From assembly GCA_020627825.1 (NCBI GenBank), contig JAHDGD010000021.1, forward strand, positions 1-39,797: a DNA stretch of 39,797 nt, written 5' to 3'. Made by a program: the position numbers and the translations under genes. This DNA comes from Saprospiraceae bacterium. GTDB taxonomy: Bacteria; Bacteroidota; Bacteroidia; Chitinophagales; Saprospiraceae. Below the pieces are notes generated by a model that saw nothing but the letters and a program-made list of their open reading frames with translations, ran no database searches and had not been told where the DNA came from. This document shows, piece after piece, positions 6,524 to 39,797 of the stretch (positions are counted from its first letter, which is position 1; each line of letters begins with the position of its first letter).

Positions 6524-7387
6524 CAGATCAATAAAGCGAAATAATTTATACAGTTGGAATGCCGTCATTGAAGGCTTTTCTGAGTATATAGATTGATTTA
6601 TCCATCGTTCTAGCGGTTTTCGAAATATCAATAGAACTTGAAGTAAACTGGAGCGATTCAGTTTAGAATAAAATCTGACCAATCTGGTTTTCACTCCTTG
6701 GTCAATTAATACAGGTAAATGTTCAATAGCTTGATTTGTTTTATCAAGGAATACTTCATTTTTCTCAAGACCAGCATGCTCTACAGGATTATCCAGATGC
6801 TGTATCAAGATATTATGCTCTTCCAATTGGAGGGCTAATAGGGTATCTTCATGACCATAAGATGTGAGTTGTTCTTCAAATCTGAACTTAAGAAAAAGGT
6901 CTCTTTTAATTAAAAAATTATTGGATCTGAAACTAAGATAAGGGTTCCTTTTTCGTTTTCTAGCAGGTTGCGCCTCAACTTTGCGTCCGTAGGTCCAATG
7001 TAATATTTTACTTTTACCTGGTTTTTTCTTTTTATAGGTTGTGCCTCCATATAAAACATCAGCTCCATCCATATGCTTTATGTACTTTTGGACGAAAGTC
7101 CTATGCCGAATAAATTGATCACAATCAAGAAACACTATGGTATCAAAGCGAGCATTTTTAGCTAGCCAATTTCGTATTTTCGAACGCCCCATATTCTTGG
7201 ACAACTCTATATATCCTACGCCTGACTTAGAAGCTAAAACAGCATTTTTATCGCGGTATTTTTGAAGAGAATAGTCGTCATAGACGAGGATTTCGAATTC
7301 TATATTCAATTTTTTACATTGGTCAAAAAGCTCGTTAACTAATGTGTTTACATCACGGTTATAAACAGGAATCAAAAAAGAAATCAC
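6503..7387 (-). CDS. Glycosyltransferase family 2 protein
   Basis: This 294-residue GT-A fold glycosyltransferase transfers a sugar from a nucleotide-sugar donor. The N-terminal strand is ISFLIPVYNRD; VYDDYS is the first acidic motif and FLDCDQ (near residue 90) takes the place of the DxD metal site. GHEDTLLALQLEE (near 178) is the C-terminal E-D motif common in GT2 enzymes. The start is a GTG at 7387: an in-frame stop lies 13 bp upstream and no ATG exists between. It begins 7 bp after the stop of the upstream GT2 gene, so the two are surely co-transcribed. A GGACGAAAGTCC palindrome (7090-7101) lies in the coding sequence. The acceptor is unknown; cell-surface polysaccharide or glycolipid is likely. 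Confidence 0.88.
   Translation of the reverse strand: MISFLIPVYNRDVNTLVNELFDQCKKLNIEFEILVYDDYSLQKYRDKNAVLASKSGVGYIELSKNMGRSKIRNWLAKNARFDTIVFLDCDQFIRHRTFVQKYIKHMDGADVLYGGTTYKKKKPGKSKILHWTYGRKVEAQPARKRKRNPYLSFRSNNFLIKRDLFLKFRFEEQLTSYGHEDTLLALQLEEHNILIQHLDNPVEHAGLEKNEVFLDKTNQAIEHLPVLIDQGVKTRLVRFYSKLNRSSLLQVLLIFRKPLERWINQSIYSEKPSMTAFQLYKLFRFIDLKKKQEG
7090..7101. repeat. Palindrome family member, GGAC-GAAA-GTCC variant (coding)
   Basis: GGACGAAAGTCC is preceded by CTTTT. The 17-bp string from 7085 to 7101 is identical to 11355-11371. Here it encodes part of RTFVQK in the GT2 gene. It has four-base arms around a GNRA-type loop and lacks the A-run on the right. It could be chance within a normal codon context. 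Confidence 0.4.
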
Positions 7388-7394
7388 AAAGCTA

Positions 7395-8105
7395 TTATTT
7401 TAAGCTAAAGCTATACATTTTTTTCAGAGTACTGGGGCTTACGCCCAAAAGGAATGCTAAGAATACCATGAAATTTACGAGATTGACCTTGAGATAAGAG
7501 TTTTTATGATACTTTCTACTGCTGACTATGGCAGGGTTCTGAATGATAGCGAGTGGAATCGATGCACGTTTTAACTTGCGAATAAGTGCAAAGTCTTCCA
7601 TAATCACATAATTCGCATCATATCCATTATGATTTTGAAAAAGTTCTCTTGTAAAAAATTGGCATTGGTCACCTCCACCAGCAAAGAGTCCATCTTTTCT
7701 GGTAAACTTTGCATTAATAGCTAGCCATTTATTGGAAGGGTTAAAATCATAGGCAAAAAAGCCTGCACGATATCCATCTTCTATTTGTTCAATTATATCC
7801 TTCTCAAATGTGCTTGGCGGAATTACATCAGCATGTAAAAACATGAAGATATTACCTTGAGCTATCTTAGCTCCATGGTTCATTTGAAGCGCTCTACTAG
7901 CGCAAGATATTGAATAGTAAGGTATCGAAAAAGAATTGCAGACTGCTTCTGAACGATCTGTAGTCGCATCACATGAGACTACTATAATTTCAGAATTCTT
8001 CGTATGTTTTAATAGATATGGAAGTAACTTTTCCAATCTTTTTTCTTCATTCAGAATCGGAATGATGATGCTAATTAAAGGAGAACTATCTTGCTTTACT
8101 GCCAT
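7395..8105 (-). CDS. GT2 glycosyltransferase, TIGR04283-like
   Basis: This 236-residue protein matches the TIGR04283 subfamily of GT2 enzymes as I know it. It has SIIIPILNEEKRL at the N-terminus, SRALQMNHGAK near residue 70, MFLHADVIPP (DxD-type site), GGGDQCQFFTRELF, YVIMEDFALIRKL and a conserved hydrophobic C-terminus FLLGVSPSTLKKMY. Members are often next to radical-SAM or arsenic-related genes; here the partner is a second GT2 gene 7 bp downstream. The substrate is unknown. A GGGC-TTAC-GCCC palindrome at 7435-7446 falls in the LLGVSP codons. Confidence 0.88.
   Translation of the reverse strand: MAVKQDSSPLISIIIPILNEEKRLEKLLPYLLKHTKNSEIIVVSCDATTDRSEAVCNSFSIPYYSISCASRALQMNHGAKIAQGNIFMFLHADVIPPSTFEKDIIEQIEDGYRAGFFAYDFNPSNKWLAINAKFTRKDGLFAGGGDQCQFFTRELFQNHNGYDANYVIMEDFALIRKLKRASIPLAIIQNPAIVSSRKYHKNSYLKVNLVNFMVFLAFLLGVSPSTLKKMYSFSLK
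7435..7446. repeat. Possible palindrome family member, GGGC-TTAC-GCCC (coding)
   Basis: On the minus strand this reads GGGC-GTAA-GCCC, a 4-bp stem with a GNRA-type loop, followed on the plus strand by AAAA. It encodes LGVSP, which is also the expected family sequence at this position, so its membership in the repeat family is doubtful. Confidence 0.3.
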
Positions 8106-10318: not shown

Positions 10319-11410
10319 TCAAAACGCTTCTCCTATTGTAATATAAAATTGAACATCTTCCACCCCTTTAGCAAAGTCTAGTCTAAGATTACTTTTTTCT
10401 TTTTTTGTAAGTTGAAATCTAAGTCCTATACCAAATGCAGGTTTCCAACTTTCGTTAAATTGTCCTAAATACGTTGAAGAAAAAGTGCTTATGGAAGTAA
10501 ATGCCACGCCAGTCAACCTTTTATAAATGGGATAACGATATTCTATTTGGGCTAAAGTATTATTGCGGTCAATAAATCTCCTATCGTTATATCCTCTTCC
10601 TGCAAAAAAATAATAATTGAAAAAAGGAACATTACCAAATTGAGTTCCTGTAAAAAGATTGAGTCCGATAATGTGCTGCTTTTTAATAGGGACAAATTTT
10701 CTAGCGATCAATGAAACACCTGTAAAAGTGAAATCTGAAAAACTATAAGCACTTCCATGTTCCAATATCAATTCTGTAAAATTTCCTTTGCTCGGATAAA
10801 ATATGTTATCCCTTGAATCGTATGAAATACTTAACCCTATGGTACTTACTGTTCCCCCTTCAATACCTAAGGGATTATCATTTGATAGAACTTCACCAGT
10901 TGTAGGGATTTCAAAAACATCAATTTTATTTCGAATACCTACAAACACTTCATCTGTCAACCTGTATGAAACTGTATTAATAATTCTAGGAAAATTAGCT
11001 CCATAAATTTCCAGATTAGAAGCAGGACTATCTATTCCAATTCCGTAGTAATTGTAGAAATATCTATAAAACCCAAGTTCACCTTGTGTCTTCCATTTAT
11101 CGTTAAAATACAACTCGTAAGGTACGAATACTAAAATTTGATTCTTAAGTGTATAGGCTAGCCCAATCCCTACTTGTGATTTCCTCCACTTTTCTTTTTC
11201 ACCAATATTAAAAATTGAAATACCAAGAGCTCCGAAGGCCAAACCAGTTTCAGGTAAGAAAAACGCAATAGGAAAAGCTGTTATACTAAAATCTTTTGCA
11301 GTATTGTACAAGCTATCGTTTTCCAGAGTATGATCTTCCTCATTTTGTGCAAAGCTTTTGGACGAAAGTCCCAAAAATAATGCGAGTAAAAGCGCAAATA
11401 ATCTCATCAT
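10319..11410 (-). CDS. BamA/TamA-type outer-membrane beta-barrel (Omp85 C-terminal domain, no POTRA)
   Basis: This 363-residue protein has a signal peptide (about 1-21, SFA|Q) followed directly by a 16-strand-type bacterial surface antigen domain. Visible motifs are YDSRDNIFYPSKGNF (near 195), GRGYNDRRFIDRN (near 270, the equivalent of the conserved RGY lid-lock loop), QIEYRYPI and a terminal Phe (YITIGEAF). At 363 residues there is no room for POTRA domains, as in the short patatin-associated or stand-alone Omp85 barrels common in Bacteroidota. It starts 1 bp after the TauE gene ends. The signal peptide contains a palindrome (11356-11376) coding FLGLSSK. Confidence 0.87.
   Translation of the reverse strand: MMRLFALLLALFLGLSSKSFAQNEEDHTLENDSLYNTAKDFSITAFPIAFFLPETGLAFGALGISIFNIGEKEKWRKSQVGIGLAYTLKNQILVFVPYELYFNDKWKTQGELGFYRYFYNYYGIGIDSPASNLEIYGANFPRIINTVSYRLTDEVFVGIRNKIDVFEIPTTGEVLSNDNPLGIEGGTVSTIGLSISYDSRDNIFYPSKGNFTELILEHGSAYSFSDFTFTGVSLIARKFVPIKKQHIIGLNLFTGTQFGNVPFFNYYFFAGRGYNDRRFIDRNNTLAQIEYRYPIYKRLTGVAFTSISTFSSTYLGQFNESWKPAFGIGLRFQLTKKEKSNLRLDFAKGVEDVQFYITIGEAF
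11356..11376. repeat. Palindrome family member in a signal-peptide coding region
   Basis: TTTTGGAC-GAAA-GTCC is followed by CAAAAA: 8-bp arms with one bulged C around a GAAA (GNRA) loop. Read on the minus strand it encodes LFLGLSSKS just before the signal-peptidase site of the barrel protein, the same relative frame as the T9SS-tail copies (LFLGSSPKK). Confidence 0.6.
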
Positions 11411-13158: not shown

Positions 13159-13455
13159 TTATTCAAAAATGATATTGAATAAAAGCTGCTTAAATATATG
13201 ACAAATATTTATAATATATAGGAATTTACAGGTATTCATTTCATCAAAAACGAATCTCTATTAGCGACGTGTGAATTCAGTTGGTGTTCAGGATTATTTT
13301 ACTTTGGACGTAAGTCCCTTCATCTTAAAACACAATCCCCTATATGTGTCAGTAAAAATGATTTCATCTCCTTTATTCACGATAAAATAAAAGTTTATGG
13401 CTAATTGAGTGATACAAAGTAATGATTCTTATTATTTTTACGTTTTTCGTATTAA
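13159..13455. other. Intergenic region between divergent genes, with one palindrome
   Basis: This A+T-rich region separates the minus-strand run from the helicase. It contains the GGAC-GTAA-GTCC palindrome at 13306-13317. A 12-codon ORF starting at the ATG at 13423 ends in TAG just before the helicase frame opens. No RNA gene was recognised. Confidence 0.5.
13306..13317. repeat. Palindrome family member, GGAC-GTAA-GTCC (intergenic)
   Basis: A 4-bp stem closes a GTAA (GNRA-type) loop, preceded by ACTTT and followed by CTT. It differs from the 7090 and 11356 copies by one base in the loop, and it lies in non-coding DNA. Confidence 0.5.
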
Positions 13456-20415: not shown

Positions 20416-20823
20416 ATGATGAAAAACATAATCTTAAGCATGATCCTTCTAATATTACTTTGGTCATGCTCCTCCGACAACTCTATTATTGATCGTGCAC
20501 AAGGGCAATGGAATCTGCAATATACCGAAGGTCCTGATGGAAACAATATCTTAACTATGCCATGGACCGTTTTAATCATAGAGGATCATTTATTTACTTT
20601 ATCCGACAACAAAGAGGAGGATATAAAAGAAATTGCTAACGGTCAATTAATCCCATGTGATAATGCTATTTTAAACAATTGTTTCACATTTGAATTTGAG
20701 CAAAAAAATACGGATGCTCAAATGGACTTAGAAATTAATACGTCTAAAATATTAAGGTTTAATAATGGTAAATTTAGTGTAGAAGGAATTCACAATATGG
20801 AAGTATCTTATTTTTTTGAATAA
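20416..20823 (+). CDS. Small lipoprotein, unknown function
   Basis: This 135-residue protein has a lipobox LLWSC (Cys18) followed by SSDNS. The body begins AQGQWNLQYTEGPDG, reminiscent of small lipocalin-like Bacteroidota lipoproteins, but I cannot assign a family. It is divergent from the NTF2-like gene. A GGGCTCGAGCCC palindrome starts immediately after its stop codon. Confidence 0.75.
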   Translation: MMKNIILSMILLILLWSCSSDNSIIDRAQGQWNLQYTEGPDGNNILTMPWTVLIIEDHLFTLSDNKEEDIKEIANGQLIPCDNAILNNCFTFEFEQKNTDAQMDLEINTSKILRFNNGKFSVEGIHNMEVSYFFE

Positions 20824-20824
20824 T

Positions 20825-20848
20825 TTTTTTGGGCTCGAGCCCAAAAAA
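20825..20848. repeat. Palindrome family member, perfect 24-bp copy (intergenic)
   Basis: Six T, GGGCTCGAGCCC (20831-20842) and six A form a perfect 24-bp palindrome starting one base after the lipoprotein stop codon. The A-run follows the hairpin on both strands, so it is not an intrinsic terminator. Confidence 0.85.
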
Positions 20849-21068: not shown

Positions 21069-21435
21069 GGGGCTGAACGGTATCGACAGGAATGATATTC
21101 GGTTAGTAAGCATGCAGGGGAATGATTGTTTACTCCTTAAAGATGACAATCGAACTATAATTGGCGAAAGAAACTTCGCACTAGCTGCCTAATCTAGGAT
21201 TAGAAAGCTTTTTGGGCCGCTCGCTTGACGTCTGATACACAGCGATGCCGCCTATCAAACAACTTTCGGACTAGGGAAAGAGGATGTTCCGACTCCTACC
21301 CGAAATTTAGGAAATAAGCTGATGGCCGGTGGCTTTTACACCACGCCTGATGACGAAAATCTAAAGTAAAAGCTAAGCATGTAGAAAGCTCTCCGTTGCT
21401 TTCTCTGGACCAGAGTTCGAATCTCTGCAGCTCCA
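21069..21435 (+). ncRNA. ssrA: tmRNA (transfer-messenger RNA)
   Basis: The 5' end GGGGCTGAACGG (21069) pairs with CAGCTCC (21428-21434) to form a 7-bp tRNA-like acceptor stem with one G-U pair. The 3' arm includes GTTCGAATC, the T-loop motif. The CCA tail is not encoded in full (the DNA reads CCACAA), so it is added later. The tag frame runs 21163-21192, GGC GAA AGA AAC TTC GCA CTA GCT GCC TAA, giving GERNFALAA, a degradation tag of the Bacteroidota ALAA-ending type. tmRNA with SmpB rescues stalled ribosomes. Confidence 0.96.
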
Positions 21436-21462
21436 CAAGAACTATTTTATGTCAATTAGTTA

Positions 21463-24161: not shown

Positions 24162-25112
24162 TCATTCTTTAATAAAGGAACTTATAAACTGTTCACCTTT
24201 TTTGTCTGTAACTCTTATCATATAATACCCACTTACTAAATCTTGTAACTGTATCATATTTCCAGGATTCTTCTTAAGGTAAACCACTTGTCCATCAGCT
24301 GCTAAAATTTCTACTTTTTCATAGGTTTTCTTTGGGCTCGAGCCCAAAAATAATTGATCATAAACTGGATTCGGATAAAACGTAATAGTTTCTTTTTCCA
24401 GTCGCGCATGTACAACCTCAGAATACGAATAGGTGCCATTATAATCTACTTGTTGTAAACGATAATAATTTATTCCACTCATGGGTTCAATGTCTGTAAA
24501 TCCATATTCTTGATGGCTAACCGAAGTACCTTGACCATTCACTTTTGCAAGTGTTTTCCAATTTCTTAAGTCTGAACTTCTTTCCAATATAAAATGACTA
24601 TTATGTATTTCAGATTCTGTTTCCCATAATAGATCAACTTCGTATGCATCGATATACGCCTCAAATTTTGATAGCTGGACAGGAAGAGGTGCTTCTACTG
24701 TTAAAAGACCATTCGTTTCATCATCAAATGTCCATAAAACACCGCCATCCGTTGTACAACGACATTTGTACTCGTAAAATCCTTCAGGTAAGTCAAGTGT
24801 GCCTACATATTCATCATTATTCCCTATATCAACATTATACGTCATAGGAACACTTGTAATATTCGTCCATGTATCTCCTACTCCAACCATGCTAACTTCT
24901 CCATAATAAATCTCGCAATCTATTCCAGCACCTTGTCCTGCTGGTTCTGTTATCCCCGGTTCATATACTTGGACATAAATAGTAAAACTCTCTCCTTCAT
25001 TTATTGTCCCCACATCGGGAAAACGATTGCCCACATAGTCAGGTTGTGCAATTCCTAAATAAGCTGTAAAGGTTAATAAAAGTGTAAGTAGTTTGGTAAC
25101 ATTTTTCATCAT
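24162..25112 (-). CDS. T9SS-sorted protein with N-terminal Ig-like domain
   Basis: Translation from the tandem ATGs at 25112 gives 316-317 residues. An in-frame ATG at 25154 would put 14 polar residues before the signal peptide and is less likely. A signal peptide (AYLGIA|Q) leads into a beta-sandwich module (about 25-140: INEGESFTIYVQVYEPG, YVGTLDLPEGFYEYKCR). A fibronectin-like segment common before T9SS tails follows (LPVQLSKFEAY...VDLLWETESEIHNSHFILERSSD...YYRLQQVDYNG), then a T9SS type A sorting domain (FYPNPV to FIKE). The palindrome at 24331-24348 encodes FLGSSPKK inside the tail. It is divergent from the alpha-amylase, so a starch-related role is possible. Confidence 0.82.
   Translation of the reverse strand: MMKNVTKLLTLLLTFTAYLGIAQPDYVGNRFPDVGTINEGESFTIYVQVYEPGITEPAGQGAGIDCEIYYGEVSMVGVGDTWTNITSVPMTYNVDIGNNDEYVGTLDLPEGFYEYKCRCTTDGGVLWTFDDETNGLLTVEAPLPVQLSKFEAYIDAYEVDLLWETESEIHNSHFILERSSDLRNWKTLAKVNGQGTSVSHQEYGFTDIEPMSGINYYRLQQVDYNGTYSYSEVVHARLEKETITFYPNPVYDQLFLGSSPKKTYEKVEILAADGQVVYLKKNPGNMIQLQDLVSGYYMIRVTDKKGEQFISSFIKE
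24331..24348. repeat. Palindrome family member inside a T9SS sorting domain
   Basis: TTT-GGGCTCGAGCCC-AAA (18-bp perfect palindrome, core 24334-24345), followed by AATAA. Read on the minus strand it encodes LFLGSSPKK directly after the YPNPVYDQ start of the sorting domain. Confidence 0.85.
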
Positions 25113-25476
25113 CTCAATTTTAATAGGTTGGCATTTTATCATACAATTATACAATCAAAATAAATTGCTTTCGGTTTAATGCAGTTCGTTGAATATTTTT
25201 GGAATATGGATGTGTAATCTAAAATAAAGCATACATAATAAAACATAAAATATATGTACATTTTCTATGTATAAAGATATTAGTTTTTCATTAAATTTGA
25301 ATACTATACACCCCTTTTAACTTCAGCTGGAATTAATTGAGCTGGAAAAATCAAAGAAAACTTTTTAATTTAGGTATTTGGTTGCACAACAGGCAAGTCA
25401 TATTGACTACAACTTGGATATCAACAACCAAAATTACCTAAAAAAAACACCCAAATGGGTTCTTAAAAAACAGCGT
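25113..25476. other. Divergent intergenic region
   Basis: This 364-bp A+T-rich region lies between the T9SS protein gene (-) and the alpha-amylase gene (+). An open frame begins at a TTG at 25378 but encodes a polar stretch before the signal peptide, so I treat it as leader. No repeat or RNA was recognised. Confidence 0.5.
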
Positions 25477-28017
25477 ATGAAAAGGTGTCAAGATTGTTTG
25501 AATAAAATCATAGTATTAATTTCATTTTGTATAGGCTCAATTTATTCATTAAGCGCACAGGACTTTATGATGCAAGGCTGGTTTTGGGATTACCCCAAGA
25601 CTGCGAACGGTGCATTATGGGCTGACACTCTAGAAAATAAAGCGGCTGATTTAGGAGCCGCTGGGTTTACATATGTTTGGTTACCTCCACTTTCAAGAGC
25701 TAGTTTTGGAGATAATTCGAATGGATATGATCCTCAAGATCTTTATGATTTGGGTATCCCAGAAGGTGGAGGAGCTACAGGATTCGGTACACGAGCTAAT
25801 GTGGATGATGTAATTGCTGCATTTGATGCTAATGGAATTCAAGCGGTTGCAGATGTGGTGTACAATCACAGAGATGGAGGTGCTCCAGAAGAAAATCCTT
25901 CCGTTGAAGGTTGGATTGAAAATTTTAATTGCACAAAAGTAAATAGCGGAGATAATGCCTTTCCTTCTGACCGATTTCGCTGTTATTTACCACTTGGTGG
26001 TAGTACTGGCAACGGTGCTGGCACCTATTATTTTAAAATCCGTTCTGCATCGAAACACCCTAATTATTATGGAAAAGAATATACCTTATATATGGAAACG
26101 AACACCACTGGTTTTCAAGGTCTATCAGCAGATTCTGAAGATGAAAGCAGTGGTGGAAATGGAGGTGGCGATTGCGGGCAAGGAAACAACACCATTCAAT
26201 TAGGAGTAGATATGATAGCTGCAATTGACAATGTAGGAAATTGCAGTGGTGGATGCGGAATAGATGAGTTTGCTCTTTCAGTTGGCAGTAGTGACTTTAA
26301 TGCTGCAGGCGATACCCTATGGATCTACATGACCAACCCCAATGGTAATTACTCAGACCATTTCATCACTGGATTGTGGGATGGAAGTGCAGATATTCAA
26401 AGTCAGATTCGGTATCAAACCTATACAGATTTTACCAACATGCCAAGTGGAAGAGGTGGCATGGATTATACCTTTTTTAAACCCAATGGGAATCCTACGC
26501 AATTAGAAGGAGACTGGGATTGGATGTGGTTTTTTTACGATTATGACCAACGGTACAATCAAGCAGTAAAAGACACACTCAATGAATGGTCTAAATGGCT
26601 TTGGGAAGATGTGGGAATAAGAGGATATCGTATGGATGCTGTGAAACATTTCAATCATGAATTTACCGGTGATCTTATGGACTATTTACATGACCAATCA
26701 ATAGATCCTGGGATGGTTGTAGGCGAATTCTTTGATGGAAATGCAGGTGTTTTAAGCAATTGGGTAGCGACCGTAGAATCATTCATGGATGCTGATACAC
26801 GTTCAAGTATACAGGTGCGTGCATTTGATTTCGCAATGAGGGATGCACTAAAAGCAGCATGCGACAACTTCGGATATGATGTTCGAAATGTATTCAATTC
26901 TGGAATGGTTGATGGATCTAGTTCCTCAAGTTCCAACGTCGTAACATTTGTAAATAATCACGATTTCAGAGAAGAAGGCCAACCTGTGCAAAATGACCCT
27001 ATGTTAGCGTATGCTTACATTCTTACCAATAATCAGATAGGTCTTCCCAGTGTTTTTTACCCTGACTATTTCGAATCGGATATTCCACATGCACCTTCTT
27101 TATTTTTAAAAGCTGAAATTGATGAATTGATGCAAATTCATCAAGATTACATTTATCAATCATCAAGTGCTGATTATTTAAACAGGATAGGAACTCCTTA
27201 TGCACATAATTATATCGAAGGTTTCGAGAATACCACTTTATTGTATCAACTTTCAGGTGGCATTGGTGGTCAAGAAGTGATTGTTGCGATTAATTTTGCA
27301 GGCGAAACTCTTAAAGTTGACCATGAAATCAATATGACCAATGTTAACATTGGTGATCAATTTACAGATATTCTTGGACGATCAAATTTTCCAGTTGCTA
27401 TTGTAAATGGATCAAACCAATTATACTTCGAGTTACCTCCAAGATCCTATTCCGTTTGGGTAAACAATGTTGCTCCATTAGCTGCTGATCTCATTGAATT
27501 TGATGTTACTCCTATTATAAACGAAGTACAATTATCTTGGACATCAGCTGATGAACTTGATTTGGAGTCCTATGAAATACAAAGATCAAAAGATGGAATT
27601 TCATTTGAATCAATAGGGATAAAGAATGCAGTTGGTCCAGGAAACTACACATATATTGATCGTCAACCTCTATATAATATGCCAATATATTATAGGCTTA
27701 AAATGCAGAATATAGATGGATCGTTTGAGTATTCATCTATAAAGACTGTGCAAATTGATCAATCGCTTCGTGATGTGGTTTTACTTCCTAACCCAGTAAT
27801 CGAAACGGCTACTTTATCGCTCTCCAGTGACCGAAATCTGGTTGCATATTTAACCATTACTAATGCTGCTGGCGAAAAGGTTTATGTCGAACAAATTATA
27901 CTAGTTGAAGGAGATCAACAGGTAGGTATTCAAATGAAAAATATGCCTGCAGGTTTATATACTTTCCGTATTCAAGCTGGTTCGGAAGCATACACTTTCA
28001 AGCAGATTAAATTATAA
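25477..28017 (+). CDS. Secreted GH13 alpha-amylase with T9SS sorting domain
   Basis: This 846-residue glycoside hydrolase family 13 enzyme cleaves alpha-1,4-glucans. The start is set at the ATG at 25477, directly before the signal peptide (1-27, LSA|Q). GH13 conserved regions are DVVYNH (126-131), GYRMDAVKH with nucleophile D387, VVGEFF with acid/base E417, and FVNNHDF with N494-H495-D496. GYDPQDLYDLG (83-93) is the usual substrate-side block. Between regions I and II a long Gly/Asn-rich insertion (about 165-330) contains a beta-module that may bind glycan. After the barrel come an all-beta domain, a fibronectin-like domain (about 675-770) and a T9SS type A tail (LLPNPV to FKQIKL). No palindrome lies in this tail. 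It is convergent with the GH5 gene 15 bp away. Confidence 0.93.
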   Translation: MKRCQDCLNKIIVLISFCIGSIYSLSAQDFMMQGWFWDYPKTANGALWADTLENKAADLGAAGFTYVWLPPLSRASFGDNSNGYDPQDLYDLGIPEGGGATGFGTRANVDDVIAAFDANGIQAVADVVYNHRDGGAPEENPSVEGWIENFNCTKVNSGDNAFPSDRFRCYLPLGGSTGNGAGTYYFKIRSASKHPNYYGKEYTLYMETNTTGFQGLSADSEDESSGGNGGGDCGQGNNTIQLGVDMIAAIDNVGNCSGGCGIDEFALSVGSSDFNAAGDTLWIYMTNPNGNYSDHFITGLWDGSADIQSQIRYQTYTDFTNMPSGRGGMDYTFFKPNGNPTQLEGDWDWMWFFYDYDQRYNQAVKDTLNEWSKWLWEDVGIRGYRMDAVKHFNHEFTGDLMDYLHDQSIDPGMVVGEFFDGNAGVLSNWVATVESFMDADTRSSIQVRAFDFAMRDALKAACDNFGYDVRNVFNSGMVDGSSSSSSNVVTFVNNHDFREEGQPVQNDPMLAYAYILTNNQIGLPSVFYPDYFESDIPHAPSLFLKAEIDELMQIHQDYIYQSSSADYLNRIGTPYAHNYIEGFENTTLLYQLSGGIGGQEVIVAINFAGETLKVDHEINMTNVNIGDQFTDILGRSNFPVAIVNGSNQLYFELPPRSYSVWVNNVAPLAADLIEFDVTPIINEVQLSWTSADELDLESYEIQRSKDGISFESIGIKNAVGPGNYTYIDRQPLYNMPIYYRLKMQNIDGSFEYSSIKTVQIDQSLRDVVLLPNPVIETATLSLSSDRNLVAYLTITNAAGEKVYVEQIILVEGDQQVGIQMKNMPAGLYTFRIQAGSEAYTFKQIKL

Positions 28018-28032
28018 AATAATAATTTCAGC

Positions 28033-30759
28033 TTATTTTTTAACAAATGATTGAGTCCAAATAGAACCGCTTTCATCTGTAATTTTAAGCACATAATACC
28101 CTGAAACAAGTTGTTGAACTGCAATAGAATGACCAGGTGATGTTTCACTATACACCAATTGTCCGTTTGTATTTATTATCTCTACTTTTTTAAACGATTT
28201 TTTTGGGCTCGAGCCCAAAAATAAATATGGTCCTACAGGATTCGGATATAATTCAATGCTTGAAACTTCATTTTCTTCCGTAGTACTAAGAAAATCGAAA
28301 TCCATCCAATTGAGATTAAATAATGGCTGTGTAATTCTCAATCTCATAGTATATCTTCCACTTGGCAAAATGGCATAAGATTCAGTAGTTGTCCAATTTT
28401 GCCAACCATCTGTAGAAGTGAATTGCACTTCCTCTATCTTTGTTTCTTCATTTTCTTCATCAATCAAGATCAACTCAAGACCTCCTGATCCTCCATCAGA
28501 CGCATTTCTGAACTTGATTCGATAACTTCCTCCTGTAGGAATATAAACATCATAATCACAAAAATCCCCTACATCCAAATAACCAATATTCTCTCCTCCT
28601 CCCACATCAGTGGTATTTTCCAGTTGAATTCCTTCATGATAAATGTATTCTTCTGCCTGGATTCGAGTAGGAATCGTAAAAAATGAAGGCAGGTTGTTCT
28701 TGATATCTTTTTTATCAAATGCTTCCAAAGGATCATCATCTGTTGACACTATGGTGTTACCAGTATAACTCAGTTGTACTTTGTCTGAGTAGATGATCTC
28801 CTCATTTATCGTTAAATCAATAAAACGTACTTCACCTTGAGTAAAGTTAGCTTCAGAAACTGAAAAAGCTACATCATTGATGTATACAGTGAAATCCTCC
28901 TTTTTAAGTGTATTCGTGGCAAAGGAAAGATATTTATTAGTATTAAATGAAACAACAGTATTGCTATCAACTGTTCCCGACACAAATTGAGTTTCAACAT
29001 CAGATATTTCACCTGTTTTGTTAAACTCAAACCAACCTACGTTATATCCTGCTCCATCAATATGAAAAGCAATGTGATCAGTATCTTCATAGATCGGTAT
29101 ATTATGTACAGCTGTGGTCTGCCAATTTTGATATCCTCCTGAAAAAGGAACAAAAGGCGTATTACTAATTATGGCACCATCTGCCGAAAAGTAAAACCGT
29201 CCGCCTTCCGAACCTGCCGCAGTTCTAACATTAATCGAATATCTACCTTCTTCCAGATCCGTCATGCTATATTTCAACCATTCATCTTTACTGGTCCACC
29301 CTACATTATATCCTACGTCATTTTGAACATCCTCTGTAGGTTCTATGTCAACACCATCATTTCGATATGACCATCCATTATTCCATGCCGTGTACGTACC
29401 CGTGCTCACATGATAGGTGGCAACATCTTGATCTTTATAGGCTACCCCATTGGGACCATAGTCATAATGTACAGCATAAATCCTTCCCGGTATATAATGA
29501 TCGATGAAAGGAATACTCCCCTCCTCTTGCACTTGTCTGAACATGGCATCAATTACTCCCGCTTCAACAGTACAATGTTGCAATTTATAATCTTCCACTA
29601 AAGCGAATAAAGCATCACTTGCTTCAGCAGCAGAGGGTTTCGGACCTGATCCATTCCCGTAATCTAAGATGGCTTGATACCCTTCTGTTTTTGACACAGA
29701 TAACGGTCCAGCTATAGCCTCAACTTTTTTTAATGGCCACCAAGCCCAACCAATATTATGCTCTTCCAATAAAGCGATTGCATCGCGAAACCATTGATTC
29801 GAATTCTCACCACTTTCTCCAAGATATAAAGGGACATTATGGGCATCTCGTATATCCAACACCCATTGAATAGATGCTTGATCATTAATGCTCCAGTACT
29901 TATGTGGACTATATACGATCTCTTCATCCCAAGGAGGTGTTAAACCAGTAAAATCATTCGCGAACCAATTTCCTTCAATGAATAAAATATGTTCTTGATC
30001 TACGGTTCTTATACTATCCGTTATTCTTTCGTACACTTCTCTTAATAAGGTTCCTCCAGGTAAATTCCAGTTGGGTTCATTAATTAAGTCATATCCAGCA
30101 ACCCATTTTTCATTTTTATATCGAATCGCCAGTTGCTTCCATAATGAAGCTAACTTTTCTTGATTTGCAGGGCTTTCCCACAAAGAAGGTTTACTTGCAT
30201 CATAGTCAGAGATACCTTCGTCGTAACCTTGTCCGCCTGGCGTGGCGTGCATATCAAGGATTACATACATATCATAAGCTGCACACCAAGAAATCAATGA
30301 ATCCGTTAATTCAAAGCCTTTTTCAAGCCATGTATTTTCTCCGGGAATTGGTTCTTCTTCGATAGGAAGCGTATACAGATTATAGTGCATGGGCAGACGA
30401 ACCGAATTGAATCCCCATTCTTTTAATTGTTCCACATCTTCTTTCGTCATGTAATTTGCCAACCATTTCGAGTAAAATTCTTCTGTTTCAGTTTCACCGA
30501 TAAGGTCTTCAATAAAGGACTTAATTTTATGTTGTGGGTTCGCAAAACCAGCTGTTTGCAGCATATAGCCTTCTTGAACCATCCATCCACCAAGTCCCAT
30601 TCCACGAAGTAAAACTTCTTCTCCTTGTTCATTAACAATCTGTGTTCCGTTAGTGGTTAATAGACTTTGGGCTCGAGCCCAAAAAGAAAAAAATACACAT
30701 AGAATGACAACGAAAAACTTCGTTCTAGTTTCTTTCAAAGACGCGGACATAATCAACAA
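28033..30759 (-). CDS. Secreted GH5 glycoside hydrolase with CBM6 modules and T9SS sorting domain
   Basis: This 908-residue protein has a signal peptide (cleavage WARA|Q, residue 30) and a GH5 barrel at about 35-380. The acid/base is E228 in DLINEPNW and the nucleophile E315 in LYLGESGENS; further barrel signatures are RLPMHYN and ILDMHATPGG. A CBM6-like module spans about 420-560, an X2-like beta domain about 570-680, a second CBM6 (RIQAEEYIYHEG...NLNWMDFDF) about 700-830 and a T9SS type A tail 837-908. With the GH16 partner this points to beta-1,3/1,4-glucan breakdown. It overlaps the GH16 stop by 26-35 bp and no start codon lies further in, so it is translationally coupled. It carries the palindrome twice: at the signal-peptidase site (30666-30683) and in the sorting tail (28200-28221), in different frames. 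Confidence 0.92.
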   Translation of the reverse strand: MLIMSASLKETRTKFFVVILCVFFSFWARAQSLLTTNGTQIVNEQGEEVLLRGMGLGGWMVQEGYMLQTAGFANPQHKIKSFIEDLIGETETEEFYSKWLANYMTKEDVEQLKEWGFNSVRLPMHYNLYTLPIEEEPIPGENTWLEKGFELTDSLISWCAAYDMYVILDMHATPGGQGYDEGISDYDASKPSLWESPANQEKLASLWKQLAIRYKNEKWVAGYDLINEPNWNLPGGTLLREVYERITDSIRTVDQEHILFIEGNWFANDFTGLTPPWDEEIVYSPHKYWSINDQASIQWVLDIRDAHNVPLYLGESGENSNQWFRDAIALLEEHNIGWAWWPLKKVEAIAGPLSVSKTEGYQAILDYGNGSGPKPSAAEASDALFALVEDYKLQHCTVEAGVIDAMFRQVQEEGSIPFIDHYIPGRIYAVHYDYGPNGVAYKDQDVATYHVSTGTYTAWNNGWSYRNDGVDIEPTEDVQNDVGYNVGWTSKDEWLKYSMTDLEEGRYSINVRTAAGSEGGRFYFSADGAIISNTPFVPFSGGYQNWQTTAVHNIPIYEDTDHIAFHIDGAGYNVGWFEFNKTGEISDVETQFVSGTVDSNTVVSFNTNKYLSFATNTLKKEDFTVYINDVAFSVSEANFTQGEVRFIDLTINEEIIYSDKVQLSYTGNTIVSTDDDPLEAFDKKDIKNNLPSFFTIPTRIQAEEYIYHEGIQLENTTDVGGGENIGYLDVGDFCDYDVYIPTGGSYRIKFRNASDGGSGGLELILIDEENEETKIEEVQFTSTDGWQNWTTTESYAILPSGRYTMRLRITQPLFNLNWMDFDFLSTTEENEVSSIELYPNPVGPYLFLGSSPKKSFKKVEIINTNGQLVYSETSPGHSIAVQQLVSGYYVLKITDESGSIWTQSFVKK
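28200..28221. repeat. Palindrome family member inside the GH5 T9SS tail
   Basis: A 22-bp perfect palindrome centred on GGGCTCGAGCCC (28205-28216) encodes LFLGSSPKK on the minus strand, at the same place in the sorting domain as the 24331 copy. Codons on both sides have diverged between the two genes, while the core plus the right-hand AAAAATAA is identical. Confidence 0.85.
30666..30683. repeat. Palindrome family member forming a signal-peptidase site
   Basis: An 18-bp perfect palindrome (core GGGCTCGAGCCC, 30669-30680). On the minus strand it is read as TTT TGG GCT CGA GCC CAA, giving FWARAQ, i.e. the A-R-A|Q cleavage motif of the GH5 signal peptide. This is a different frame from the copy in the same gene's tail. 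Confidence 0.85.
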
Positions 30760-37775: not shown

Positions 37776-37800
37776 TTTTTTGGGGCTTTAAGCCCAAAAA
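37776..37800. repeat. Palindrome family member, odd-centre variant (intergenic)
   Basis: T-run, G, then GGGCTTTAAGCCC (37783-37795) and five A. The centre is an unpaired T, so arms are GGGCTT/AAGCCC. It lies between the small exported protein and the CoA-transferase, 67 bp before a second copy. Confidence 0.75.
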
Positions 37801-37866: not shown

Positions 37867-37888
37867 TTTTTGGGCTTGAGCCCAAAAA
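37867..37888. repeat. Palindrome family member, GGGC-TTGA-GCCC (leader)
   Basis: Five T, GGGCTTGAGCCC (37872-37883) and five A. It sits 45 bp upstream of the GTG start of the CoA-transferase gene. If an upstream TTG were used it would encode FLGLSPK. Confidence 0.8.
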
Positions 37889-38994: not shown

Positions 38995-39228
38995 GTCTGA
39001 ATTTTGCGTAAAACAACGCTATTGTGGTCTTGAAACTGCGCCAAATTCTTCTTATAGCTTAAATATTTAGTATTTTCTCCCAGCCCATCATAGCTCTATG
39101 CATATTAAAATGCCTGCAAAGCAAATGCTCAGACAACTTTTTTTCTTTCACCATTAAAAGGACTATTCTTCAATTACAAAAGTTGTAATTTCTTCGGCAT
39201 TTCAGGGCTCATCACGAAGTTCTATTAT

Positions 39229-39478
39229 CCTGAGTTCGGGATTAATTGCGAAAGCAAAAATTAAAGGAAACGCTTTATTCAAGATGTTTTGTTGAAAATG
39301 TGGCGAGCCACATTGAAATAAAACAACGTAGAAGAAAGTGGAATACTTTGATTTCCCTTAAAATTTGTAGACCAAAGATTGATTCTTAAAATCCAAAATT
39401 GCACAAATCCTATGTAACCAATTGATAACCAATTGTATACAATACAATCAATTGCGAACTAGTAATCCCGAACTCAGG
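39229..39478. mobile_element. MITE-like element with perfect 16-bp terminal inverted repeats
   Basis: CCTGAGTTCGGGATTA (39229-39244) and TAATCCCGAACTCAGG (39463-39478) are exact reverse complements 250 bp apart end to end. The interior has no ORF. No convincing target-site duplication is visible (ATTAT left, TTAAT right). It is likely a non-autonomous transposable element, or two solo repeats. Confidence 0.5.
39297..39314. repeat. Hairpin inside the MITE-like element
   Basis: AATGTGGC (39297-39304) and GCCACATT (39307-39314) flank GA: an 8-bp perfect inverted repeat near the left third of the 250-bp element. Confidence 0.7.
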
Positions 39479-39797
39479 TTAATACATAATTCAGGTTAAA
39501 AAAAAACTTCTGTAGGCAACATTTAAAAATAAAATGGTATCTTTAATTTGTATCGATCGTACATACATTAATGTATAAACACATGAAAAATACTATTTAA
39601 GCATACTATATGTGTTGGAATATAGTATTTCTTGAATTGCGCACCTACTCCGTCAAACCCACCTTACTTTCACTGTTTTAATTGATTTTAAACACATGGC
39701 ACGCTTTGCAGTGAGCGTAGCTAACAGTCTAGACTTTTCCCAAACCCGATTTACCCTATTTTTTTAATCTGTAGGAAGTCTATATTCCATTTGGCTA

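Follow-up and report, generated by a model that had tools for sequence, protein, structure and literature searches.

A recurrent palindrome in genes and at gene ends of a Saprospiraceae bacterium is the commonest form of a putative DNA hairpin signal family

The stretch of DNA analysed here (the window) comprises the 39,797 nucleotides of contig JAHDGD010000021.1 from a Saprospiraceae bacterium (assembly GCA_020627825.1). It is contig C114 of a 297-contig, 4.46 Mb metagenome-assembled genome (MAG) which is 96% complete and is called G000 in the following. The window contains the palindrome TTTGGGCTCGAGCCCAAA four times and once more with one mismatch; the 16-mer core starts at 20829, 24332, 28203 and 30667, and that of the one-mismatch copy at 37870. 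These five matches at up to three mismatches in 39.8 kb compare with 0.11 expected, and in none of 100 shuffles of the window DNA was that number reached. All copies are listed in Table 1, together with related hairpins.

Three copies are located in open reading frames (ORFs) of secreted proteins, as had been reported by an initial annotation of the window. The coding strand reads LFLGSSPKK in two type IX secretion system (T9SS) tails (24332, 28203) and FSFWARAQ in the signal peptide of a GH5-like protein (30667), whose gene does carry two copies, which lie close to its opposite ends. The two tail copies share their position in homologous tails (77% DNA identity over 74 nt) and are thus not independent. 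The palindrome is free of stop codons in all frames and on both strands and can therefore sit in genes in any register; the constraint is on the DNA and not on the protein. The third frame (FGLEP), also announced as open, is used by 10 of 31 copies within ORFs genome-wide, none of them inside a called ORF of the window. An Rfam search of the window returned a tmRNA gene only (RF00023, 118.9 bits, 21069-21438), which lies downstream of the intergenic palindrome at 20829, at a distance of about 220 bp; a known RNA family was rejected for the palindrome on this basis.

Table 1. Palindromes and related hairpins in the window.
Feature	Position	Strand	Context
Palindrome TTTTTTGGGCTCGAGCCCAAAAAA	20825..20848	.	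intergenic, immediately after the stop codon of plus-strand ORF 20440-20823
Palindrome TTTGGGCTCGAGCCCAAA, read LGSSPK	24331..24348	.	T9SS type A tail (TIGR04183) of minus-strand ORF 24162-25112
Palindrome TTTTTGGGCTCGAGCCCAAAAA, read LGSSPK	28200..28221	.	T9SS tail (TIGR04183) of GH5-like minus-strand ORF 28033-30750
Palindrome TTTGGGCTCGAGCCCAAA, read FWARAQ	30666..30683	.	signal peptide of GH5-like ORF 28033-30750
Variant palindrome, loop TTGA	37868..37888	.	upstream of the called start (37933) of a CoA-transferase-like ORF
F2 hairpin form, loop TTTAA (GGGGCTTTAAGCCC)	37780..37798	.	intergenic, 88 bp from the 37870 copy
One-strand hairpin TTTGGAC-GAAA-GTCC	7087..7101	+	
One-strand hairpin TTTGGGC-GTAA-GCCC	7435..7449	-	minus-strand ORF 7395-8105, sense orientation
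One-strand hairpin TTTGGAC-GAAA-GTCC	11357..11371	+	within the signal peptide of minus-strand ORF 10319-11410
One-strand hairpin TTTGGAC-GTAA-GTCC	13303..13317	+	intergenic

The G000 genome contains 148 sites at up to one mismatch and 190 at up to two (0 and 1 for the reversed control). Three congener Saprospiraceae genomes are much poorer, with 13 sites in G001 (a 51%-complete genome), 4 in G003 and 1 in G002, and among 56 more distant genomes a single one-mismatch match was found, in one genome. The assemblies are MAGs, and the relatives are 66-74% identical in DNA. Outside the Saprospiraceae, the matches listed by a contig-database scan for the 18-mer were single ones only. IMG/VR contained no exact match to the 20-mer, and a phage origin was rejected on that ground; literature searches found no description of this motif.

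Most G000 sites were fetched as DNA stretches (L-numbers, used for stretches from all these genomes), in which genes were called with a simple codon-usage script of our own. The G000 stretches were selected for their palindrome sites, so densities in them are not genome averages; the congener genomes were read in part. From 119 distinct sites read in this way, 88 (74%) are intergenic and 31 lie in ORFs, though 85% of that DNA is coding. The intergenic copies favour the 3' ends of genes, with a median distance of 52 bp to 3' ends versus 120 bp to 5' ends, and many of them follow the stop codon by 2-30 bp. All gene-pair orientations are represented; the copies are densest between convergent genes, and 17 are found between divergent ones. 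Within ORFs the palindrome is read as LGSSP (15 sites), FGLEP (10) or WARAQ (6), and the hosts comprise Gnd, AroB, TruC, an MBL-fold hydrolase, a glycosyltransferase, T9SS tails and signal peptides. With such varied hosts, secretion, to which the initial annotation had tied the palindrome, is not what unites them. Two palindromes 8.4 kb apart (L083:3001 and L083:11445) each open a near-identical short ORF (FGLEPKKMESVVLVHHDEVYLKSRAVLKIVE) and represent a local duplication.

It had further been proposed that the palindrome is an inserted element of the Rickettsia type, which should leave a clean in-frame gap in homologous proteins. Orthologues from the congeners and solved structures were therefore aligned over the palindrome. 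The alignments are gapless for the L043 protein (KLPFGLEPKKK versus ILPESLKPEGQ in G003), the glycosyltransferase (HFGLEPKKITVAYNALP versus QFGVEPQKVSVAYNALP), the MBL hydrolase, the pseudouridine synthase and one signal peptide, and also for a related one-strand hairpin in leucyl-tRNA synthetase (RDQAFAQKFDL versus RDYEFASKYGL). The 6PGDH protein has zero extra residues at the palindrome, signal peptide and tail of the GH5-like protein show gaps of at most two residues relative to orthologues, and of the 72 positions in the TIGR04183 model the two T9SS tails cover 70 and 72 without interruption. In AroB, solved structures vary by 3-4 residues in either direction at that site. The palindrome residues thus mostly fill ordinary columns, without a gap of 6-7 residues, and in most testable genes the palindrome replaces residues at near-constant length. 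No match to the Y1 transposase of the RAYT type (Y1_Tnp, PF01797) was found in the 96%-complete G000, while 5 of 14 control genomes were positive. A mobile palindromic insertion, be it of the Rickettsia element, the REP/RAYT (repetitive extragenic palindrome and its associated transposase) or the MITE (miniature inverted-repeat transposable element) type, would explain the high copy number, the recent expansion in one species, the mostly intergenic location and a 9-residue gap at L060. Given the mostly gapless alignments, the missing transposase, a unit of about 20 bp instead of about 150 bp and the occurrence of loop variants of one stem, we rejected that model as largely refuted and very improbable.

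Ordinary conservation of the peptides can be regarded as refuted. Relatives, too, have signal peptides that end in AQ, and similar residues pre-exist in some hosts (FGVEPQK in a G003 glycosyltransferase), but the majority of copies fall between genes, those within ORFs use three frames in unrelated proteins, and in relatives the site is usually filled by other residues, not by the same peptide in other codons.

The comparison between species indicates that the hairpin is retained as such. Flanking DNA is about 70% identical between G000 and G001. The hairpin is 100% identical at L043:7197, L063, L072 and L101, which were fetched because of exact matches in G001, and also at L102:547 and L059:2839, which were not selected for identity. 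At two further sites the stem is kept and the loop is changed, from TCGA in one species to GGAA in the other (L043:4587) and between TCGA and TTGA (L059:1574). At the place orthologous to the GH5 signal-peptide site G001 has TTTGGG-TGGA-CCC, and the palindrome at L101:5045 is missing from G001. G003 carries, at almost that position in LigA (L059:2839), a different TTTGG hairpin, which lies on the opposite strand, and two G003 hairpins (L154:19465 and L175:6149) have identical counterparts in G000 or G001.

The palindrome is one member of a broader family that follows the rule 5'-TTTGG-xy-loop-y'x'-CC, with a loop of 4-6 nt ending in A. Other words over-represented in G000 and G003 are TTTTGGGC-GNAA-GCC, TTTTGGGC-TTGACC, TTTTGGGC-TTTAA-GCCC and TTTGGAC-GNAA-GTCC; most have in common a T tract, a stem beginning with GG and a loop ending in A. 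For a covariation test without an assumed stem, all TTTGG-xy-N4..6-zw-CC sites were collected and zw was compared with the complement of xy in 2000 permutations. Complementary stems were found at 74 of 324 sites in G003 (26.8 expected), at 14 of 64 in the G001 contigs (5.3 expected) and, after removal of the AAA-flanked palindromic sites, at 36 of 175 in G000 (18.0 expected), and in each case none of the permutations was as high. Six control prefixes gave no comparable excess, the strongest being TTTGC in G003 with 35 versus 22.3 (10 of 2000 permutations). The loop ends in A in 61/74, 14/14 and 29/36 of the complementary sites of G003, G001 and G000, as opposed to 84/250, 20/50 and 59/139 of the non-complementary ones. 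TTTGGGC-TCGA-GCCCAAA and the F2 form TTTGGGC-TTTAA-GCCCAAA (loop TTTAA/TTAAA) are symmetric because they satisfy the rule on both strands at once.

These data bear on two alternatives. A biased mutational or repair process, such as hairpin-templated correction or a mismatch-repair bias as discussed for HIP1, could make and keep hairpins without any selected function. Gain in place and retention of the stem under a changing loop fit such a by-product, and a model of that type has been published for HIP1 (PMC4390886). However, templated correction would perfect any stem, while only those with the TTTGG prefix and the loop-end A are enriched, and we regard this explanation as unlikely. Somewhat less likely still is a double-stranded operator bound by a dimeric regulator or nucleoid factor. 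The main form is perfectly symmetric with a near-uniform core, as expected for an operator, but related forms have asymmetric flanks and loops of 4 or 5 nt, and the stem letters vary in relatives and yet stay complementary, which is not predicted for a duplex reader of fixed half-sites.

Word counts for TTTTGGGC-N3-5-GCC are several-fold above the reversed control in other Saprospiraceae genera (G005, G025, G029, G031, G063, G068 and G081), so the hairpin signal or a cousin of it may extend beyond the genus. G082, a closed chromosome of 4,345,237 bp with a 54,948 bp plasmid, also gave a positive count. The same motif was rejected there, as the loop-A rule is absent and other repeats are present. 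Intergenic DNA in the G082 stretches (L188-L189, L210-L229) is dense in GC-rich composite hairpin repeats (TTTGGGG-CTG-CCCC..., GCAGGGCCGAGCAGACC...), which number 42-51 copies per 440 kb and almost never occur in genes; this is a different repeat system.

A further alternative is a role at the ends of mRNAs. A perfect hairpin was found at 52 of 439 gene ends in the fetched, palindrome-centred stretches, nearly all of the TTTGG family, and hairpins of other kinds are rare at gene ends there. Together with the clustering 2-30 bp past stops, the 3'-end distances and the density between convergent genes this would fit RNA hairpins acting as terminators or as processing or stability elements, with the in-gene copies as strays. 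An intrinsic (rho-independent) terminator was rejected because it requires a GC stem followed by a T tract, while here, on either strand, the T tract precedes the stem and an A tract follows it. Against an RNA element in general stand the 31 of 119 copies in ORFs, the 17 between divergent genes and the one-strand hairpins of G003, which show neither an excess at gene ends nor a sense or antisense bias (35 sense, 38 antisense, 15 intergenic, which fits the coding fraction). Loop-end-A hairpins in G003 are distributed evenly along genes at a near-random spacing of about 9 kb. The G003 strand data are difficult to square with a role in mRNA only, and we judge the RNA 3'-end explanation to be improbable, though the least so of the alternatives considered. 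A replication-strand signal was likewise rejected, as G003 showed no clear orientation bias relative to GC skew (52 lagging versus 36 leading in a hand count, not significant).

With somewhat better than even confidence we interpret the palindrome as a selected DNA hairpin signal that evolved in situ and is the commonest form in G000 of a genus-wide TTTGG hairpin family. Sites would arise in place from existing sequence at (nearly) unchanged length, in whichever frame the host protein tolerates, and would then be held by purifying selection. In G000 the two-strand form would have spread, for the most part to positions right behind stop codons, where constraint is lowest. The data show a structure-defined motif at the DNA level that is gained by substitution and preserved; we infer that the hairpin is read by a protein in single-stranded DNA, because the stem covaries, the loop length varies, one-strand forms lack a second half-site and the strand of the gene is irrelevant in G003.

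Several observations weigh against this interpretation. The conservation sample comprises few sites, and exact G001 matches had led to four of the fully identical ones, although the contrast with the flanks is large. Some insertions are possible in view of the L060 gap, which occurs in a weak alignment (31% identity), the ambiguous L090 and AroB alignments and the signal peptide of the GH5-like protein, which is several residues longer than in orthologues. The one-strand forms of G000 lean antisense (23 versus 14, a small sample), and neither the near-uniform 18-22 bp palindrome of G000 nor its clustering past stop codons is demanded by a strand-neutral DNA signal. A reader protein and a function of the hairpin are putative.

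In their distribution the TTTGG hairpins resemble the DNA uptake sequences (DUS) of Neisseriaceae and the uptake signal sequences (USS) of Pasteurellaceae, which are likewise short dispersed motifs gained in place in and between genes on both strands. DUS and USS are fixed linear words, whereas stem and loop letters of the TTTGG hairpin vary with complementarity kept, and DUS and USS are denser than the approximately one hairpin per 9 kb in G003. Promotion of uptake by the TTTGG hairpin is a guess. A link to terminators has been reported for inverted DUS/USS pairs located between genes (PMC2346458), and dialects between relatives are described in PMC3630211. HIP1 of cyanobacteria is a massively over-represented perfect palindrome of uncertain function (PMC4390886). 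One palindrome dominates in G000, but the family is variable in relatives; HIP1 is an 8-mer tied to methyltransferases, and the variable stems and loops of the TTTGG family form no single methylation word.

REP sequences are also short, mostly intergenic hairpins of high copy number with a fixed 5' tag, comparable to TTTGG next to the hairpin; according to PMC3733652 they are 20-40 bp long, many with GTAG or CGTC tags. The TTTGG family differs by its tag, by in-gene sites gained in place and by the lack of Y1_Tnp in G000. Rickettsia palindromic elements are translated within unrelated proteins as well, but they are about 150 bp long and integrate in frame as insertions (PMC10969869), whereas the conserved unit here has about 18-24 bp and shows no insertion in most testable cases. 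Finally, the one-strand form TTTGG-GCGAAAGC-CC contains exactly the d(GCGAAAGC) of the extraordinarily stable DNA mini-hairpins d(GCGAAGC)/d(GCGAAAGC). These are a physical motif and not a genomic repeat family, and their stability within the TTTGG context is a computed prediction.

Apart from the hairpins, the window contains an inverted repeat (TATTATCCTGAGTTCGGGATTA, 39223-39244 and 39463-39484) whose arms are 95% complementary and 218 nt apart. Pieces of it (CTGAGTTCGG, TAATCCCGAA) are 8-12 times over-represented in the fetched G000 DNA, so that a second family of repeats is probable, and it may be a MITE.

As to function, a signal for uptake/self-recognition or recombination comes first in our ranking, followed by an RNA 3'-end role and then by a mutational epiphenomenon. 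The leading guess, unproven and tentative, is a mark of self DNA of the uptake-sequence or Chi type, by which carrier DNA would be preferentially taken up, protected or recombined. To our knowledge the known dispersed genome signals (DUS, USS, Chi, the FtsK orienting polar sequences KOPS, and HIP1) are linear words. It is conceivable, at a similarly low level of confidence, that the genus possesses a strand-independent signal written as DNA secondary structure, embedded in genes by point substitution and retained under selection, with a dedicated reader of single-stranded hairpins in uptake, self-recognition or recombination. Across three species the constraint comprises base-pairing, tag and loop base, acts also in genes and shows no strand preference in the species in which this was measurable, which suggests that DNA is recognised in folded, single-stranded form. 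The case would offer a directly testable structure-coded DNA signal, and it illustrates how a palindrome may come to be translated in three frames within proteins without ever having been inserted.

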